A DNA stretch of 32,411 nt from Caldilineales bacterium (GTDB taxonomy: Bacteria > Chloroflexota > Anaerolineae > J102): the NCBI GenBank assembly GCA_019695115.1, contig JAIBAP010000014.1, positions 1 through 32,411 on the forward strand. Direction: 5' to 3'. Position numbers and translations under genes: made by a program. Every line of letters starts with the position of its first letter. The stretch's first letter is position 1. Shown piece after piece: positions 1 through 19,406 of the stretch. The notes beneath the pieces were generated by a model, which worked only from the letters and a program-made list of their open reading frames with translations, was not told where the DNA came from and ran no database searches.

Positions 1-148
1 CCAGGTGGTATTGGCCGCGACCGGCCAGGTGGTATTGGCCGCGACCGGCCAGGTGGTATTGGCCGCGACCGGCCAGGTGGTATTGGCCGCGACCGGCCAG
101 GTGGTATTGGCCGCGACCGGCCAGGTGGTATTGGCCGCGACCGGCCAG
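1..148. repeat. 24-bp perfect tandem repeat, 6 copies plus 4 nt
   Basis: Six identical 24-bp units fill positions 1-144, with four more matching bases to 148. The array runs off the left edge, so the true copy number is unknown. The period is a multiple of three. On the minus strand the units stay open and read as the octapeptide LAGRGQYH inside the cyclase-like gene. Identical units point to recent expansion, or to an assembly that collapsed or stopped in a repeat. Confidence 0.97.
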
Positions 149-277
149 GTGCAGGGCGATGACGGCCAGGGCGGTGGCGCGAGCCGAGGAGGACAGCCGC
201 CCCACCCAGTGGTTTCCGGCCACCTGCTCTGCCTGCAAGCGTTGCCCAGCCCGGTCGATAGCCGCCGTGATCGTCAT
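1..277 (-). CDS. Terpene cyclase-like protein (squalene/hopene or class II diterpene cyclase family), N-terminal fragment
   Basis: The reading frame starts with ATG at 277 (minus strand) and stays open to the window edge, giving 92 residues. Residues 5-43 (AIDRAGQRL...[10 protein letters not shown]...ATALAVIAL) resemble the first alpha-barrel helices of squalene-hopene cyclase-type and prenyltransferase/squalene oxidase repeat proteins, whose usual opening is an Ala-rich helix, a GxW-type turn and an SSS/TA helix. From residue 44 the sequence is only the octapeptide LAGRGQYH repeated six times. The ATG lies 10 nt past the stop of the polyprenyl synthase gene, so it is the fourth gene of the terpenoid operon. 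The diagnostic DxDD catalytic motif would lie beyond the edge, so squalene cyclase, class II diterpene cyclase and a non-catalytic relative cannot be separated. The repeat could also make it non-functional. Confidence 0.6.
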
Positions 278-287
278 GTCTCAGCTC

Positions 288-1277
288 TCAGGCCAGGCGC
301 AGATAGAGTCTGTCGACCAGGTGGTGCAGCCGCCGGCGGGCAGGAGAATCGGGCAGGAGAACCAGGTGCTGCTGACTGCACCGGCTGAAGTGCAAAGCCC
401 TGGCTCTGGCTTCGTCCAGGGCGCCGACCTCGGTCAGAATCGCCTTCATCTCGGCATAGCGGCCGGCAGCCGGGGCATCGCTTGCGGTCAGATCATCGAG
501 CAGGGAACGCAGGTCGAGGCCGGCGGACTGGCGGGCAAGGATGAGCGGCAGGGTGATGCGGCAGTTGCGGAGGTCGGAGGACAACGGTTTGCCCAACGTC
601 CGGGGGTCGCCCTCGTAGGCCAGAATGTCATCGACGATCTGAAAGGCGACGCCCAGGTTTTCGCCATAGGCAGCCAGCGCCGCCGTCGCCTCGGCGCCTC
701 CCCCGCCCAGGCAGGCGCCGATCTGACAGGCGCTGGCGCAGGCGCTGGCCGTCTTCAGCCGCACCATGCCCAGGTAATCTGCCTCGCTGACGTCCGGCTG
801 GCAGGATAGCGCTGCTTCCAGCGCCTGGCCTTTGGCCATGTCGATGCCCATCTGGCTGAGAAGCCGGATGGCCTGGAGCACGTGTGCGGCGCTGACCCCG
901 CCCTGATGCGCCTGCACCAGACCGAAGAAGCTGTAAAAGATGAAGAGGTCGCCGGTGATCAGGGCGGCGGGAAGGTCGAAACGGGCGTGCAGCGAGGGTT
1001 GCCCTCGGCGCAGGTCGTCGCCATCGACGATGTCGTCGTGGATCAGGCTGGCAACATGGGCGGCTTCGAGGCCCGCCGCGGCAGAAATGACCCGATCCGG
1101 GTCGCCTCCGACGGCCTGGCAGGCGTCTAGAAGCAGCAGGGGGCGCAGGAGCTTGCCGGGGACGGACAGGGCATAGGCGCTGGTCGCGGCCAGATAGCCG
1201 GCGGAGTCGCCCAGAGCCTCTCCGTTCTGTTGGCCCAGCCAGGCCCACACCTGCTCCGCGTCTTCAGGCTGCCACAT
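288..1277 (-). CDS. Trans-polyprenyl diphosphate synthase (GGPP synthase-like)
   Basis: 329 residues. It condenses isopentenyl diphosphate with allylic diphosphates and should supply the substrate for the terpene synthase next door. The first aspartate-rich motif is DDIVD at residues 81-85, followed by the usual LRRG (89-92). The second is DDILA at 216-220, followed by GKPLSSDL (229-236), so its last Asp is replaced by Ala. The residues before the first motif (AHVASLIH) are small or non-aromatic at positions -4 and -5. In this family that usually permits products longer than farnesyl diphosphate, so GGPP is the best guess. The ATG at 1277 is chosen because homology begins there and it overlaps the upstream gene by 14 nt. 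A longer open frame to 1547 lies wholly inside that gene and lacks homology. Confidence 0.9.
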   Translation of the reverse strand: MWQPEDAEQVWAWLGQQNGEALGDSAGYLAATSAYALSVPGKLLRPLLLLDACQAVGGDPDRVISAAAGLEAAHVASLIHDDIVDGDDLRRGQPSLHARFDLPAALITGDLFIFYSFFGLVQAHQGGVSAAHVLQAIRLLSQMGIDMAKGQALEAALSCQPDVSEADYLGMVRLKTASACASACQIGACLGGGGAEATAALAAYGENLGVAFQIVDDILAYEGDPRTLGKPLSSDLRNCRITLPLILARQSAGLDLRSLLDDLTASDAPAAGRYAEMKAILTEVGALDEARARALHFSRCSQQHLVLLPDSPARRRLHHLVDRLYLRLA

Positions 1278-3636: not shown

Positions 3637-3659
3637 GCCCATGACGGCGGACTTAAAAT
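3630..3659 (+). promoter_or_regulatory. Predicted sigma70 promoter of ppk2
   Basis: Plus strand: perfect -35 TTGACA (3630-3635), an 18-nt spacer, then -10 TAAAAT (3654-3659). Transcription would start near 3666, giving a leader of about 47 nt with a GGAGGG ribosome site at 3703-3708. Confidence 0.6.
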
Positions 3660-3712
3660 CAAAGCCATTACGCGTCGCTTTCTCTCTACTCTACATCGTT
3701 TTGGAGGGTGCC

Positions 3713-4669
3713 ATGGCGGACAAAAAGAACAAGAAGAAAGGCCAGGAGACCGCGCCTCCTTCCTCGTCGCTGGCAGTGGTTGAGGACGACCATGCTCACG
3801 CCGACGACCAACTCATCCTGCCGCACGGCGATCGGGGCAGCGATGACGACCTGGTGCATGACGAACCGGCGCCGGCAAAGCAAGGCAAAACCAAGCGCCT
3901 GGATCGGATTTTCTATGAACAGGAACTCAAGCGGCTGTACGTCGAATTGGTCAAGCTGCAGGAATGGGTCAAGTACAAAGGCTTGAAAGTGGTGATCCTG
4001 TTCGAAGGCCGCGATGCCGCCGGCAAGGGCGGGACGATCAAGCGCCTCATCGAACCGCTCAACCCGCGTTTTGCCCGTGTGGTGGCTTTGGGCGTGCCCA
4101 CGGAGCGCGAGAAGACGCAATGGTACTTCCAGCGATACATCGCCCATTTGCCGGCTGCAGGCGAAATGGTCTTCTTCGACCGCAGTTGGTACAACCGGGC
4201 GGGCGTCGAGCGGGTGATGGGCTTCTGCTCGGACGAAGATTATTGGGAATTCCTGCGCTCCTGCCCATCGTTCGAGCGCATGTTGGTGCGTTCGGGGACG
4301 ATCCTGGTCAAGTATTGGTTCTCGGTCAGCGATGACGAGCAGGAGCGACGCTTCCAGGCCCGGCTGAGCGACCCCACCAAACGCTGGAAGCTCAGCCCGA
4401 TGGACGTGGAATCGCGCTCGCGTTGGGTCGAATATTCCAAGGCCAAGGACGACATGTTCGCCTACACCGACATCAAGCAGGCCCCCTGGTATGTGGTCAA
4501 CGCCGACGACAAGCGCCGCGCCCATCTCAACACCATCACCCACCTGCTCGGCCTCGTCCCCTACGAAGACCTGACCCCCGAACCGATCACCCTGCCCCCG
4601 CGCAGCGACCGCACCGGTTATGTCCGCCCGCCGATGGAATACCAGACCTTCGTGCCCGAAGTGTATTGA
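3713..4669 (+). CDS. ppk2: Polyphosphate kinase 2 family protein
   Basis: 318 residues. PPK2 enzymes transfer phosphate between polyphosphate and nucleoside mono- or diphosphates. The P-loop is GRDAAGKGG at residues 99-107 and the second signature is FFDRSWYNR at 154-162; both are intact. The core from about residue 60 is collinear with single-domain PPK2. The first 55 residues are a charged, low-complexity extension (KKNKKKG, then Asp/His-rich) that is not part of the catalytic fold. The start at 3713 has GGAGGG 4 nt upstream. It stands alone, divergent from the terpenoid operon. Whether it prefers AMP, ADP or GDP cannot be told from the motifs visible here. Confidence 0.95.
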   Translation: MADKKNKKKGQETAPPSSSLAVVEDDHAHADDQLILPHGDRGSDDDLVHDEPAPAKQGKTKRLDRIFYEQELKRLYVELVKLQEWVKYKGLKVVILFEGRDAAGKGGTIKRLIEPLNPRFARVVALGVPTEREKTQWYFQRYIAHLPAAGEMVFFDRSWYNRAGVERVMGFCSDEDYWEFLRSCPSFERMLVRSGTILVKYWFSVSDDEQERRFQARLSDPTKRWKLSPMDVESRSRWVEYSKAKDDMFAYTDIKQAPWYVVNADDKRRAHLNTITHLLGLVPYEDLTPEPITLPPRSDRTGYVRPPMEYQTFVPEVY

Positions 4670-4808: not shown

Positions 4809-4839
4809 TTGCCCCACCCGCCCATCTTGTGAGTATAAT
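4809..4839 (+). promoter_or_regulatory. Possible promoter of the zinc-ribbon/LysM gene
   Basis: A perfect TATAAT lies at 4834-4839. The best -35 partner, TTGCCC at 4809-4814, matches poorly and sits at a long 19-nt spacing. A start near 4846 would give a leader of about 67 nt before the ATG at 4913. Confidence 0.35.
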
Positions 4840-4912
4840 AGCCTGGCCTTCAGCCGGGCCGCGCCTGCGACCCGGCCCGGCTCCGTCGCTTTATCTCTCA
4901 CCCTACCCCACC

Positions 4913-6331
4913 ATGCCCTACACCTGCCGGCGCTGCCGACTTGAGGTGCCGCAAGGTCTCGACGTTTGCCCGAACTGCGGCGCCGCCGCCCAACGGCCCG
5001 ACGCCGTCATCCGCTGCCGTCATTGTCATCGCCGCGTCCGCTCGCACCTGGCGGTCTGCCCCCATTGCGGCCGCTCCGTCCAGCCCTGGCGCCCCGATCT
5101 GCCCCTGGCGGCAGTTGCCCTCTTCATCCTGGCCGTGCTGTGGCTTGGCCTCGGCAATGGCGATGGCCTCCTTGAGCGCACGCGCTCCCGACTGGTCGCC
5201 CTCCTGCCGCCGCCCGTCACCCCTGCCCCCCTCATCGTCGTCCTCGACACCCCCACCCCCGAAGACATTGGCAGCATCCCCGACGCCGATCTGGTCGAAC
5301 AGCCGGAAGTGATCGAGATCGCCCCGCTGGAACCGATCACCGATGTCGAGGGACTGGAATCGCTGCAGCCACTGACCCTCACCGGCGCGATCACCGTCAC
5401 CGAACCGCTGACCGGCGCCCAAACGATCACCGCCACGGCGGTTATCACGCCCGCGCTTGCCATCGAGACGCCCACCCCGACCGCGCCGCCCCCCTCGGCC
5501 ACACCTTCGCCTTCGGCCACCGCCTCGTCTACGACAGCGCCAAGCCGCACCCCCACCCCGCTACCCACCGCCCGCACAAGCCCCACCCCTTCGGCGACGC
5601 TCCTGGCGAGGGCCACGGCCACGGCCAGCCCCACGACCAGGGCCACGGCCAGCCCCACGACCAGGGCCACGGCTTCGCCCACCTCCCGCCCCACCCAAAC
5701 CCCCACCAGTCCACCGCCCGCCACGGCCACGCCGACGGCGACGACCGCCCCCACCTCCGCCGACACCTACACCGTGCGCGTCGGCGACACCCTGCTCAGC
5801 ATTGCCCAAACCGTCGGGCGGTCGGTCGCGGCCCTGACTGCCTTCAACAACATCACCGACCCGCGCACCTTGCGCGTGGGTCAGGTGCTGCGGATCCCGC
5901 CGGCCGACTACGTCCCACCCACGGCGCCGACGCCGACGCCCGCACCCACCCGCACCCGCACCCCCACGCCGCCGCCTGCCGCCACCCCCACGCCTGCCAT
6001 CGCCCTCGCCGCCCCCGTCCTCGTCGGGCCGGGCGACAATGCCGGCTTCAAGGGCGCCGATGCCATCATCGAACTGGCCTGGCAGAACACGGGCGGCCTG
6101 CCCGAAGGCGTGGTCAACATGCTCCACATCGGCGTCCTCGCCGGCCCCGATACGGTCGAGTGGCGCTTCGTCGAGCCGCAGGGGCAGGCCACCAGCTTCA
6201 GAGTCCCCACCTGGCTCTTCGGCCAGGCCCCGCAAGAATACGGACGCACCTACATCTGGTTTGTCCAGGCCGCCAGCGGCGAGGCGCCCGTCTCGCCGCC
6301 CAGCCAGCAACGCCGCTTCTTGTGGGACTAA
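4913..6331 (+). CDS. Zinc-ribbon, membrane-anchored LysM protein with Pro/Thr-rich linkers
   Basis: 472 residues. Two CxxC...CxxC zinc ribbons come first: C5/C8/C19/C22 (CRRC, CPNC) and C35/C38/C49/C52 (CRHC, CPHC). One membrane segment follows at about 63-80. Then come an acidic stretch, a Pro/Thr-rich linker (about 180-283), a LysM domain (about 284-330, with VGDTLLSIA and LRVGQVLRIP), a second Pro/Thr linker, and a C-terminal beta-rich domain of about 110 residues. LysM binds peptidoglycan GlcNAc, so the C-terminal part should face the wall while the ribbons stay in the cytoplasm. No enzymatic motif is visible. A linking or sensing role is inference. An in-frame ATG at 4829 would overlap the putative promoter, so 4913 is preferred. 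Confidence 0.85.
   Translation: MPYTCRRCRLEVPQGLDVCPNCGAAAQRPDAVIRCRHCHRRVRSHLAVCPHCGRSVQPWRPDLPLAAVALFILAVLWLGLGNGDGLLERTRSRLVALLPPPVTPAPLIVVLDTPTPEDIGSIPDADLVEQPEVIEIAPLEPITDVEGLESLQPLTLTGAITVTEPLTGAQTITATAVITPALAIETPTPTAPPPSATPSPSATASSTTAPSRTPTPLPTARTSPTPSATLLARATATASPTTRATASPTTRATASPTSRPTQTPTSPPPATATPTATTAPTSADTYTVRVGDTLLSIAQTVGRSVAALTAFNNITDPRTLRVGQVLRIPPADYVPPTAPTPTPAPTRTRTPTPPPAATPTPAIALAAPVLVGPGDNAGFKGADAIIELAWQNTGGLPEGVVNMLHIGVLAGPDTVEWRFVEPQGQATSFRVPTWLFGQAPQEYGRTYIWFVQAASGEAPVSPPSQQRRFLWD
5617..5673 (+). repeat. 24-bp tandem repeat inside the Pro/Thr linker
   Basis: Two exact 24-bp copies (5617-5640, 5641-5664) plus a 9-bp partial, encoding TASPTTRA-type octapeptides. It marks repeat expansion within the linker. 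Confidence 0.85.
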
Positions 6332-6336
6332 CTCGC

Positions 6337-6591
6337 CGCTCGCTGACGCTTGCACGCGCCGCTCGCTCACGCTTGCGGTTCCAATCGCCGCTCGCTCACG
6401 CTTGCGGTTCCAATCGCCGCTCGCTCACGCTTGCGGTTCCAATCGCCGCTCGCTCACGCTTGCGCGCACCGCTCGCTGACGCTTGCGGTTCCAATCACCG
6501 CTCGCTGACGCTTGCGCGCACCGCTCGCTCACGCTTGCGGTTCCAATCGCCGCTCGCTGACGCTTGCGCGCACCGCTCGCTGACGCTTGCG
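6337..6591. repeat. Ten-copy GC-rich repeat array in the intergenic leader
   Basis: Ten copies of an 18-bp core, CGCTCGCTSACGCTTGCG (S is C or G), fill almost the whole gap between the LysM and HEAT genes. Cores are separated by one of two spacers: an 11-bp GTTCCAATCRC or a 5-bp CGCAC, with slight variation at the first copy. This gives periods of 29 and 23 bp. The array ends 16 bp before the HEAT gene ATG. It stays open in several frames, but the translations look like shadow peptides and it is taken as non-coding. Confidence 0.93.
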
Positions 6592-6607
6592 GTTCTGCTT
6601 CCATCCT

Positions 6608-7639
6608 ATGACCCGCAAACTCACCGACCTTCTCTTTGCCATCGGCGACAGCCAGACTAAACTGAGCCGCAAATCGTTGGCGCCTCTTTCCGACCTCAAC
6701 AATCAGGAATTGAGCCAGTTCCAGGAAGCCTGGGCGCGCTTCAGCCCGGCGCGGCGGCTGGAATTGTTGAACGCCCTCGTCGATCTGGCCGAGGAGCAGA
6801 TCGAATACGACTATCGCACCATCCTGCGCTGGACGCTGCACGATGCCGACGCCCGCATCCGCGTCCGCTCGATCCAGGGCCTGTGGGAAGACGAGCGTCC
6901 CCGCCTCATCCCCGCCTTCCAGAACCTGCTCTTGCACGACGCCGTGCCCGAAGTACGCGCGGCCGCAGCCACGGCCCTGGGGCGATTCGTCTACTGGGGC
7001 GAGGTGGGGGCGGTCGAATCACCCCTGCTGGCCGACGCCGCCCAGGCACTGTGGGATAGCTACTACAACGAACGCGAGCACCTGCCCGTCCGCCAGCGCG
7101 CCCTCGAGGCCCTGGCCGCATCGAGCGAAGCCAGCGTCACCCGCGCCATCGAGAACGCCATCTTCAGCGACGAACCTGAACTGCAGCTCAGCGCCCTGGC
7201 CGCGATGGGCCGCAACGCCGACCCGCGCTGGATCGCCTACCTGCTGCCCGAGCTGGCGGAGGACGACCCTGCCCTCCGTCTCGAGGCCGTGCGTTCGCTG
7301 GGCGAACTCGAAGCCCGCGCGGCGGTGCGCCCGATCATCCAGATGATCGCCCAGGAGACCAACGCCCAGGTGCGGCTGGCGGCGCTGGCGGCGTTAGGGC
7401 AAATCGGCGGCGAGGAGGCTCGCCGCGCCCTGAAAGCCGCGTCCGAATGGGATGACGAAGCCACCGTCGCCGCAGCCGAAGAGGCTCTGACCGAGATCAT
7501 GGCCAGCGACGGCAACACTTACGACCTCATCAACCAGATCCTCGGCTACGACGAGAGCGAAGACGGGCCAGACGCCGACTATTACGACGACAGCCTTGAC
7601 GAAGAACTGCGCGACCTGCTGGACGAAGGAGAACGCTAA
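6608..7639 (+). CDS. HEAT-repeat protein
   Basis: 343 residues, no signal peptide or membrane segment. From about residue 70 it is built of HEAT/PBS-lyase-type helical repeats. Typical units are DARIRVRSIQGL, PEVRAAAATALGRF, PALRLEAVRSLGEL and AQVRLAALAALGQIGG, each with the D/E-x-x-V/L-R-x-x-A pattern. The C-terminal 40 residues are very acidic (DESEDGPDADYYDDS). Such proteins are protein-binding scaffolds, and the partner is unknown. The start at 6608 follows the repeat array with no clear ribosome site. The stop is 5 nt before the AEC transporter gene, so the two are probably co-transcribed. Confidence 0.85.
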   Translation: MTRKLTDLLFAIGDSQTKLSRKSLAPLSDLNNQELSQFQEAWARFSPARRLELLNALVDLAEEQIEYDYRTILRWTLHDADARIRVRSIQGLWEDERPRLIPAFQNLLLHDAVPEVRAAAATALGRFVYWGEVGAVESPLLADAAQALWDSYYNEREHLPVRQRALEALAASSEASVTRAIENAIFSDEPELQLSALAAMGRNADPRWIAYLLPELAEDDPALRLEAVRSLGELEARAAVRPIIQMIAQETNAQVRLAALAALGQIGGEEARRALKAASEWDDEATVAAAEEALTEIMASDGNTYDLINQILGYDESEDGPDADYYDDSLDEELRDLLDEGER

Positions 7640-7644
7640 CCAGG

Positions 7645-8571
7645 GTGGGCGACGCCGGCGGGCCGGGTTCCCTGGCCCACATTCTCTTGCAGGTGCTAGG
7701 GCCGATTGCCGCCCTGACCGGGGTGGGCTTTGTCCTCCAAAGCCGTCTCCACCTCGATGTCCGCTCGCTCAGTCGCGTCGTCTTCTACGTCCTCACCCCT
7801 TGTCTGATCTACGATTCCATCGTCCATCTCACCATCGACGCCGCCACCATCGGCCGCACCCTGAGCTTTGCCGGGCTGTACATGCTGCTGATGGGCCTGA
7901 TCGCCTTGATCGTGGCCCGGCGCTCCGGCTACAACGGCGGTCTGGCCAGCGCCTTCATCGTCGCCGCCATCCTGATAAACGATGGCAACTACGGCCTGCC
8001 GCTCAACCTCTTTGCCTTTGGCGAGGCCGGTTTCGCGTACGCCGTCGTCATGTTCATCTTCAACAACCTCGTTGGCAACGTCATCAGCATCTTCTTGCTG
8101 GCGCATGGCAATCATGGCGCCGCCGTAGCCCTGCGCCGCACCCTCACGGCCCCGGTCGTGTGGGCGATGGCGGCCGGCTTTCTCAGCCGGGCCACCGGGC
8201 TGGCCCCCACTGGCTCGTTCGCCGACATGATCCAGATGGCCGGCCGCGCCGCCATCCCCGTCTTCCTCCTCATCCTGGGCATGACCCTGGCCCAAGCCCG
8301 CACCCACAGCCAACGGGGCGCCATCACTCGCCTCACGGCCCTGCGGATGGCAGGCGGTCCGGCCCTGGCCATCGCCTTGACCGGGGTCATGGGGCTGACC
8401 GGCCTCAACCATGCGGTGGCAATCATGCAGTCCTCTATGCCCACTGCCGTCAACTCGATCGTCCTCAGCAATGAATTCGAGTCCGCCCCTGATTTCGTCG
8501 CCGGGGCTGTCTTCCTCACCACCCTCGTCAGCGTCGTCACCCTCCCGGCCTTGCTCTTGTGGTTGAAATAG
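7645..8571 (+). CDS. AEC (auxin efflux carrier) family transporter
   Basis: 308 residues with about ten hydrophobic segments in two five-helix halves, as in the AEC family (Pfam Mem_trans). In the middle, NDGNYGLPLNLFAFG carries the N-x-G-x-x-x-x-P helix break typical of the first half. The second half has the matching SSMPTAVNSIVLSNEF. Family members export organic anions such as malate, or amphipathic carboxylates; the substrate here is unknown. The GTG start at 7645 lies 5 nt after the HEAT gene. Its end overlaps nothing and the TPR gene follows 11 nt later, so the three form an operon. Confidence 0.88.
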   Translation: MGDAGGPGSLAHILLQVLGPIAALTGVGFVLQSRLHLDVRSLSRVVFYVLTPCLIYDSIVHLTIDAATIGRTLSFAGLYMLLMGLIALIVARRSGYNGGLASAFIVAAILINDGNYGLPLNLFAFGEAGFAYAVVMFIFNNLVGNVISIFLLAHGNHGAAVALRRTLTAPVVWAMAAGFLSRATGLAPTGSFADMIQMAGRAAIPVFLLILGMTLAQARTHSQRGAITRLTALRMAGGPALAIALTGVMGLTGLNHAVAIMQSSMPTAVNSIVLSNEFESAPDFVAGAVFLTTLVSVVTLPALLLWLK

Positions 8572-12341: not shown

Positions 12342-12719
12342 ATGTACACCCTCTCCCTCCAGCGCGACTTCATCGCCCAACACTACCTCATCGGCGGCGA
12401 TTGGGGCGCCGAGAACCAACCGCACTCGCACCACTACAAGATCGAAGTCATGATCGAAGGCGAGGAACTCGACAGTCACGGCTACCTGATCGATAGCGTC
12501 GATTTCCAGGCCCAACTCAACGACCTGGTGACCGCCTACGCCGACAAAACCCTCAACGACCTGCCCGGCTTCGAGGGCCTGAACCCCAGCCTGGAACGCT
12601 TCTGCCGCCAACTCTGCGAAGAGATGGACGAGAAGCTGTACGCGCCCGCCATCACCGCCATCAGCGTCAAGCTGTGGGAAAACCCGACAACCTGGGCGGC
12701 GTATGATCTGGAACGATAG
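12342..12719 (+). CDS. 6-pyruvoyltetrahydropterin synthase/QueD-family protein with Glu replacing the catalytic Cys
   Basis: 125 residues, the normal length for the T-fold PTPS family. Zinc ligands are His14 (AQHYL), His28 and His30 (PHSHHY). Canonical QueD and PTPS have C-x3-H-G-H; here the same spacing reads E24-x3-H28-S-H30. Glu at that place is the mark of the PTPS-III group, known to replace dihydroneopterin aldolase (FolB) in folate synthesis in some bacteria. The catalytic-triad region near the end (LWENP) keeps the usual Glu. A 7,8-dihydroneopterin triphosphate-type substrate is likely. The exact product, folate or queuosine precursor, is uncertain, and no folate or queuosine gene is adjacent. 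The start at 12342 is chosen where homology begins; the gene is divergent from the toxin-antitoxin pair. Confidence 0.82.
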   Translation: MYTLSLQRDFIAQHYLIGGDWGAENQPHSHHYKIEVMIEGEELDSHGYLIDSVDFQAQLNDLVTAYADKTLNDLPGFEGLNPSLERFCRQLCEEMDEKLYAPAITAISVKLWENPTTWAAYDLER

Positions 12720-17936: not shown

Positions 17937-19406
17937 TCAGCGGTAGCTGGTGGCTGTGGGGATGGGGGTGGGCGGCGAGGTTGGGATCGGGGAAGGGGTG
18001 AGGGGCGGTGGGGTGGGCGTATCGGTTGGGGGAACAGACGGGGGCAGCGGGCTGGTAGGAGCCGGGGGCGGAACCGCTGGCGTCGCCGCCGATGGGCGGG
18101 TGGCCGTCGCCGCTGGTGTGCCGATGACCCGCAGTGGTGTTGGCGATACCGGCGGGGGCGTGGCCGCAGGCGTCTCGCTGGGGCCAGGCGTCGCCGAAGG
18201 GGTGGCGGTGGCAGTCGCGCTTGCAGTCGGGGTGGAGGTGAAGGTGGGGGTGGCGGTGGGGGTCGCAGTTGGCGTGGGTTGGAGGGAGGGGAGCAGTAGC
18301 CACCACAGCTCGAAGCCGGCCACGGCCAGCAGGAGATCGCTGTCGTCGGGCGTCTGGAAGACGGCGATGGCGCCACGGATGGCCCCACCGGGGGGCAGGG
18401 GCAGAGGTCGCCACGAGGCTCCGGCGTCGTCGCTGCGCCACAGATTGCCGCCGTCATCGGGCAAGATCAGGGTCTGCCAGACGATCGGGTCGAGGAGCAG
18501 AGTCTGGGGAGGGAGGCGGCCGGGTAGAGGCAAGGGTTGCCAGCTGCGGCCTTCATCGCTGCTGCTCGACAAGCCGGTGGCATGGCCCAGATAGAGATGC
18601 ACCGGCCCCCGCTCGGCCCCGACCAGGAAACGAGGCTGCAAATCGGCAGGGAGCGGATACAGTTGCCATTGCTCGTCCAGCGCAGCCGGGTTGCCGCCGT
18701 TGGCGGCGTAGGCCACCCAGCCCAGTTCGCCGCTGTTGCCGGCCCCAGCGATTCCCATCGCCCACAGGCCGTGTTCGGTCATGGTCAGGGCCTGGATGGG
18801 GCCAGGAGCGCCGAAGCTGCGCCACCCCGAACCGCCGTCCCGGCCGAGCACCAGCGTCTCATCGCCGGCCAGCGCCACCAGGTCGCCGGCGGTGGTGGGC
18901 TGCACTGCCAGCAGGACGGGATCGAAGTTGAGCGGCCGGTAGAGGAGGTCGAAGCGGGCGCCGCTGTCGGTCGAGCGGTAGAGGCCGCGACGTCCGACCG
19001 GCCCGGCCAGGGCATAGAGGGTGTGGATGCCGCCGGCCTGCAGGTCGAGCAAGGTCAGGGCGCCGGTGGCTGTGGTGGGCAGCCCGGCGCCGATGATGCT
19101 CCAGGTGCGCCCGCGGTCGACGCTGCGCCAAAGAGCCTGCACCGACCAATGATAGAGGGTGGTCAGGCCCTGACCGCTGGCGAAGGCGACGCCCTCGACG
19201 AGTGTCCCATTCTCGCCGCTCTGGGCAGGGCCGCGGTTGGCACCGGATTGCGCTCGCGCCAGTTGCCAGGTCTGGCCGCTGTCCATGGCAGTGGCAAAGG
19301 GCGACCACTGCCTTGCCGCCGGCGATAGCAAAGCGAGCAAGGGGAAGAAGAAGAGGAGCAGGCCAAGCCCCCACAACAGCCAGCGACGCCCCAGATCGGT
19401 GCTCAT
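17937..19406 (-). CDS. Membrane-anchored BNR/VPS10-like beta-propeller protein with Pro/Thr-rich tail
   Basis: 489 residues. A hydrophobic segment at about 9-28 (LLWGLGLLLFFFPLLALL) acts as signal anchor. Residues about 40-370 carry Asp-box (BNR) motifs such as SVDRGRTWSI, STDSGARFDL, SSDEGRSWQP and SDDAGASWRP, seen in sialidase and photosystem-assembly-type propellers. The catalytic Arg triad and Tyr/Glu of true sialidases are not recognisable, so a binding role is more likely. The last 115 residues are a Pro/Thr/Ala-rich tail ending in TATSYR. The start at 19406 follows the TPR gene by 16 nt, and a longer open frame upstream reads through that gene out of frame. It is probably a surface or periplasmic partner of the kinase. 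Confidence 0.8.
   Translation of the reverse strand: MSTDLGRRWLLWGLGLLLFFFPLLALLSPAARQWSPFATAMDSGQTWQLARAQSGANRGPAQSGENGTLVEGVAFASGQGLTTLYHWSVQALWRSVDRGRTWSIIGAGLPTTATGALTLLDLQAGGIHTLYALAGPVGRRGLYRSTDSGARFDLLYRPLNFDPVLLAVQPTTAGDLVALAGDETLVLGRDGGSGWRSFGAPGPIQALTMTEHGLWAMGIAGAGNSGELGWVAYAANGGNPAALDEQWQLYPLPADLQPRFLVGAERGPVHLYLGHATGLSSSSDEGRSWQPLPLPGRLPPQTLLLDPIVWQTLILPDDGGNLWRSDDAGASWRPLPLPPGGAIRGAIAVFQTPDDSDLLLAVAGFELWWLLLPSLQPTPTATPTATPTFTSTPTASATATATPSATPGPSETPAATPPPVSPTPLRVIGTPAATATRPSAATPAVPPPAPTSPLPPSVPPTDTPTPPPLTPSPIPTSPPTPIPTATSYR
17940..18290. repeat. Low-complexity Pro/Thr-coding tract
   Basis: Irregular GGNGTNGG-type repeats on the plus strand, encoding the Pro/Thr tail of the propeller protein on the minus strand. 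The G-runs lie on the template strand. Confidence 0.75.

Follow-up and report, generated by a model that had tools for sequence, protein, structure and literature searches.

The window analysed here, the whole stretch of 32,411 nucleotides from the genome of a Caldilineales bacterium, begins with base 1 of contig C14 (JAIBAP010000014.1) in an assembly of 5.99 Mb distributed over 135 contigs. The first gene at this contig end is the 5′ part of a predicted class II terpene cyclase gene (positions 2–277, minus strand), which starts with the ATG at position 277 and continues on a second contig, C41 (L009 12940–14571, minus strand). Directly upstream of the cyclase lies a polyprenyl diphosphate synthase-like gene (288–1277, minus strand; Pfam PF00348, E 4.7e-57), the end of which is found 10 bp ahead of the cyclase start codon. 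It is accompanied on the same strand by a class I terpene synthase-like gene (1264–2160; Pfam Terpene_syn_C_2, E 1.7e-16, with sequence relatives in the PDB) and a cytochrome P450 gene (2157–3668; Pfam p450, E 2.2e-88). The order of prenyl diphosphate synthase and cyclase was the same in both orthologous loci examined for order, L042 and L065. In two orthologous loci, L040 and L041, a UbiA-family prenyltransferase gene follows the cyclase. On C41 the large frame that comes next on the minus strand (L009 11007–13064) resembles, by eye, a fusion of homocysteine methyltransferase and methylenetetrahydrofolate reductase. Elsewhere in the window, positions 6333–6595 hold a dense mixed tandem array with periods of 52, 29 and 23 bp, just downstream of the open frame 4829–6331.

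Tandem-repeat analysis revealed that window positions 1–151 consist of a perfect coding array with a period of 24 bp, 6.3 copies, 100% match and no indels. Within it 127 consecutive bases are identical to the base 24 positions away, which places the array beyond chance. Read on the minus strand from the ATG at position 277, this part of the gene encodes 42 ordinary residues (152–277), which align with four orthologues at 40–56% identity, and then H(LAGRGQYH)n as far as the edge of the window; the open frame 2–277 thus reads ...VIALH, then six LAGRGQYH units, and continues past the edge. A sequence-only reading of this DNA had described six identical in-frame 24-bp units at a contig end, and the perfect periodicity, the frame and the position at base 1 of C14 all bear this description out. 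The coordinates 1–277 given there hold for the open frame, whereas the array itself spans 1–151. The copies are identical at all positions, synonymous ones included, which on this sequence evidence means that the expansion is recent or that homogenisation is ongoing; the very recent expansion proposed in that reading agrees with this identity. The features are those of a coding minisatellite: the unit is longer than 10 bp (24 bp), identity is high (100%), a single open frame runs through the array and has homologous coding sequence to either side of it, and the unit length is a multiple of three. For the last reason the array does not belong to the frameshifting phase-variable repeats and is indeed frame-neutral, as had been suggested.

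A pattern search of the genome found the other exact matches of the array in the last bases of C41. This contig closes with 127 bases of the same array, identically oriented (L009 14446–14572), so that the periodic bases at the two ends amount to 127 for C41 and 151, that is 127 + 24, for C14. The phases of the two ends are compatible and permit only total array lengths of 21 + 24n. As 151 periodic bases are present on C14 alone, the true array, which runs off the contig end, is at least 165 bp long, corresponding to an n of at least 6 extra units and at least 48 residues.

C41 carries the remainder of the cyclase in the same frame on its minus strand as an intact frame of 543 residues, of which some 475 lie beyond the segment adjoining the array. 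This part matched the Pfam families SQHop_cyclase_C (E 2.2e-38) and SQHop_cyclase_N (E 7.4e-17), with scores above the gathering cut-offs (PF13243, 132.5 bits versus 26.1; PF13249, 61.9 bits versus 26.2). The 92-residue window part alone gave no Pfam family match; its N-terminus still aligns with the N-termini of the orthologues. The best sequence relatives of the C41 part in the PDB were squalene-hopene cyclases, followed by drimenyl diphosphate synthase. The cyclase retains an intact DADDTA motif of the DxDD type, and DxDD is named as the type II terpene cyclase motif in PMC9814783. With the squalene-hopene cyclase equivalog TIGR01507 the C41 part, which was the part scored, reached 126.7 bits and remained below the cut-off of 431.1. 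Because of this score the gene is placed as a predicted class II (squalene-hopene-type) terpene cyclase and not as a squalene-hopene cyclase proper. The gene had earlier been called terpene cyclase-like, with the resumption of cyclase homology beyond the array proposed as a check; both SQHop domains are found on the far side, in the same frame. Because the flanks encode two parts of one cyclase and the order of prenyl diphosphate synthase and cyclase is conserved, there is little doubt from these sequences that C41 and C14 represent two halves of one locus, with the array between them in the assembly. The gene is split between two contigs that both end in the same array, and therefore the array almost certainly is real and interrupts the assembly, not the gene.

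The ends of other contigs were also compared. Among the sampled ends 17 groups of two shared terminal 127-mers, one of these groups being a masked contig with itself, and no shared 141-mers were observed among them except for the masked contig. Perfect tandem repeats were found at 31 of 159 unmasked sampled contig ends, out of approximately 270 ends in the assembly and including the two ends of the cyclase array, compared to 1 of 1000 random internal cut points. In 19 of the 31 repeat-bearing ends the repeat had a length of exactly 127 or 127 plus one period. The lengths at the two cyclase ends and the behaviour of the other contig ends fit a de Bruijn assembler which stalled at tandem arrays at k = 127. 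The perfect arrays at contig ends have periods of 16 to 180 bp (for example C4R/C23L, C36R/C19L, C105R/C22L and C38L), and many of them look intergenic; the C38L array, with a period of 120 bp, encodes by eye a TPR-like repeat of 40 residues.

Close orthologues of the cyclase (E below 1e-50) were detected in 5 of 399 other genomes of the phylum, sampled from a larger group. No additional close orthologue came from 47 genomes of the class to which one of the orthologues belongs. Two genomes of the same genus gave no close orthologue either, with a weak match of 22 bits in G001 and none in G002, which is 79% complete. The N-terminal motif was scanned in 30 loci and was present in 10; it was absent from the 20 more distant loci scanned, L045–L064. 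Two fragmentary orthologues were left out of the scan, L043, whose locus ends short of the loop, and L044, a C-terminal fragment; genome G293 was represented by L065. The spacing from LSxSA to DGGW was 31 residues in six of the ten homologues (L040, L041, L042, L065, L029 and L030) and 37, 40, 44 and 47 residues in L032, L031, L028 and L033, respectively. The extra residues of these four longer homologues align at the position of the array and represent unrelated insertions of 6–16 residues. The repeat itself was absent from this loop in all ten homologues read, including four orthologues whose N-terminus could be read.

With zero extra copies, the cyclase would have a spacing of 31 residues from LSSSA to DGGW in a gap-free alignment. 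In the predicted model of L029 the array position corresponds to the loop D50–F54 between helices 36–49 and 55–67, in a block with a pLDDT of 95; this model has a mean pLDDT of 79.9, was built on an alignment of 6 sequences and describes a protein approximately 30% identical to the cyclase under study. Structure comparison matched its fold to 1sqc (E 6.6e-20). The zero-copy protein keeps the spacing of six of the ten homologues, and therefore the array, judged from the alignment and the predicted model, is a pure insertion that lengthens a short loop between two helices. The earlier proposal that the units replace conserved helices could not be upheld, since the sequence of both flanking helices is present and the zero-copy spacing is the common one.

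One copy of the unit (LAGRGQ-H) corresponds to the native loop and aligns with the loops of orthologues, for example LADAAR-F and LVDETQ-Y. With up to 2 mismatches allowed, the 24-bp unit had 11 matches in the genome and none was found away from the array: the 10 listed all lay in the array ends of C14 and C41, and from the C41 sequence we place the eleventh at the first unit on that contig. It was also not found, again at up to 2 mismatches, in 395 other genomes of the class, drawn from a larger group. Each unit contains a hairpin sequence, TGGCCG-CGAC-CGGCCA, the first copy at positions 12–27, which recurs every 24 bp. The 151-nt strand folds into six hairpins with a z score of −4.49; for a 48-nt piece alone hairpin folding was unexceptional (z −0.61 and −0.15). 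In the 2.06 Mb sampled, TGGCCG-N4-CGGCCA occurred 4 further times outside the array, with 0.8 occurrences expected from base composition. Polymerase slippage on a hairpin template in vitro is reported in PMC4134008. Hairpin-aided slippage is plausible here, and no more.

Tandem Repeats Finder reported 77 rows in the 2.06 Mb sample, which is enriched for contig ends, when at least 3 copies, at least 95% match and a period of at least 10 were demanded; 23 of these were perfect. Eight of the 77 arrays lay inside frames with coding-like codons on both sides, coding status being judged by codon use alone. The period was a multiple of three in all eight, compared to 22 of the 69 others, among which the two ends of the cyclase array were counted because of their position at contig ends. 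Fisher's test gave p = 2.8e-4 for this difference, a fairer null by our own arithmetic being approximately 0.01–0.04, as the test is biased towards such periods: a frame-breaking array rarely fits within one open frame. For at least one of the eight, C6_L 6179–6219, the opposite strand had been given in an earlier count. A looser count of 54 of 77 arrays within genes was discarded, as it included frames merely running upstream into intergenic arrays. In-frame arrays in coding-like frames were seen at C33_R 12505–12547 (GAGH), C28_R 18663–18714 (STLA), C22_R 6981–7029 (RAGS), C36_L 8279–8392 (DLAQGGRG) and C27_L 3655–3757 (GGGDAGTQ). By their codon use, the cyclase array is probably not the sole in-frame coding array of this genome.

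The view that this genome is rich in arrays rests on the comparison of contig ends with random points of the same genome and on the counts obtained for two repeat families in relatives. A density control of 12 loci from other genomes contained 2 arrays in 112,447 bases, against the 77 rows in 2.06 Mb; this control is small and gave no clear difference. The first of the two families, a 14-bp repeat built from two related heptamers (GGTTATT GGAGATT), had 249 matches on many contigs of the genome. It had 0 matches in G001 and 2 in G002 (79% complete), both of the same genus, 3, 2 and 1 matches in G003, G004 and G005, and 0 matches in the remaining 15 genomes of the search. A reversed control of this repeat gave 30 matches in the genome, perhaps because the unit itself is simple. 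Its heptamer structure is reminiscent of the STRR repeats of cyanobacteria. The second family had 72 matches in the genome and none in the other 20 genomes, with 0 matches for its control. Loss of SbcD, MutS, MutL or RecJ was considered as a cause of the repeat burst and rejected, since all four families match over their curated cut-offs in the genome.

Several other explanations of the array were weighed. An assembler looping at the contig end of a genome with one or very few copies would account for the location of the array, for its length of 151 = 127 + 24, which is dictated by the assembler and not by biology, and for its perfect identity, which is expected of a collapsed cycle. Following from the workings of the assembler, however, a cycle of 24 at k = 127 should require reads with a periodic run longer than k, and given the 151 periodic bases in the window the permitted totals begin at 165 bp. 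Moreover, a second contig with a different unique flank ends in the same array at a compatible phase, and the two flanks are halves of one gene. The artefact that the sequence-only reading had left as an alternative is thereby largely excluded, and we regard it as highly improbable. Still more remote is the insertion of a dispersed repeat element of the REP or MITE type. This genome does contain dispersed tandem-repeat families, but such an origin entails copies at several genomic sites, and a search allowing up to 2 mismatches found the 24-bp unit nowhere outside the array ends; the residues that it encodes also fit the loop native to the gene.

Other alternatives concern the consequence of the expansion. 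The array could have disabled the cyclase in a gene that is being lost, as at least 48 extra residues and the patchy occurrence of the gene (5 of 399 other phylum genomes) would suggest. On the other hand, the open frame is unbroken to either side of the array, with 543 residues on C41, the DADDTA motif is preserved, and each of the upstream frames, for prenyl synthase, terpene synthase and P450, matches its family. Decay is consequently considered unlikely. Alternatively, the array might be a contingency device, in which selection acts on the copy number so as to adjust or switch, reversibly, what the cyclase makes or how active it is. The frame-neutral repeats inside a gene for a catalyst and the many perfect arrays across the genome are in line with this, and copy-number change of tandem repeats within isogenic bacterial populations is reported in PMC12817950, there for promoter repeats. 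But the repeat was seen at the loop in 0 of 10 homologues, and the abundance of arrays, 69 of 77 of which failed the inside-gene test, points to a general process; selection for such a device appears very unlikely. It is also unlikely, although conceivable, that a lineage-specific burst of perfect tandem duplication across the genome, filtered for whole codons inside genes, is under way and that the cyclase loop is hypervariable, so that cells of a single population differ in the octapeptide number of their protein, which alters the behaviour of the enzyme or its contacts with partners.

The array is in our judgement very probably a real and recent in-frame minisatellite expansion within a class II cyclase gene, born by slippage and probably tolerated. 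Its unit would have been taken from the gene's own sequence, at a point where a helix ends and a short loop follows, and replication slippage or unequal recombination would have amplified it, perhaps with the help of the 6-bp hairpin in each unit. Each copy would add 8 residues to a loop of already variable length in the family, so that copy number could change without frameshift and the enzyme would probably still fold. The resulting array broke the assembly into C41 and C14. As far as sequence comparison allows, a longer, tolerated loop is probably the consequence. The copy number of the array may vary, an insert of at least 48 residues could harm folding or activity, and tuning of or damage to the enzyme, both raised in the sequence-only reading, is possible.

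A literature search, with most subscription journals outside its coverage, found no description of this array. It is another member of the known class of in-frame coding minisatellites and one of many arrays in its genome. As in the minisatellites reviewed in PMC3899988, units of more than 10 bp and of whole codons lie within a gene, with identical copies suggesting recent turnover. Those are described there mainly for extracellular and cell-surface proteins, whereas the host here is a terpene cyclase, and the array was read in one assembly. The phase-variable CTCTT coding repeats of Neisseria, covered in the same review, share with this array that copy number in a gene could change at replication; unlike them, the 24-bp unit causes no frameshift and hence no on/off switching. 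According to PMC12817950, Mycobacterium tuberculosis similarly has longer tandem repeats whose copy number is hidden from short reads, and its pe/ppe genes show a bias towards in-frame structural variants. The phase-variable repeats given there lie in promoters, in contrast to the present array, which is located within an enzyme gene and was read in one assembly. Among class II cyclases, 1sqc (squalene-hopene cyclase), 7xq4 (drimenyl diphosphate synthase) and 7xkx (Tpn2) share the fold of the homologue L029 and the DxDD-type motif of the cyclase studied here, which differs from the ten homologues read by the repeat in its loop. Repeats longer than the k-mer that a de Bruijn assembler leaves unresolved, as here, are dealt with in PMC6868369; at the present locus both broken ends were identified and matched.

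This locus demonstrates how a perfect coding minisatellite can hide in a short-k assembly, with the gene split over two contigs and each half resembling a truncated or odd protein. The case is a clean one and its ancestral state can be read: eight residues at a time, the loop of a predicted enzyme would have grown by at least 48 residues. The repeat burst in the lineage as a whole is a more interesting lead than the cyclase array itself, and a genome with 31 of 159 unmasked sampled contig ends in perfect arrays would be well suited to studies of what sets off a burst of this kind in one lineage.
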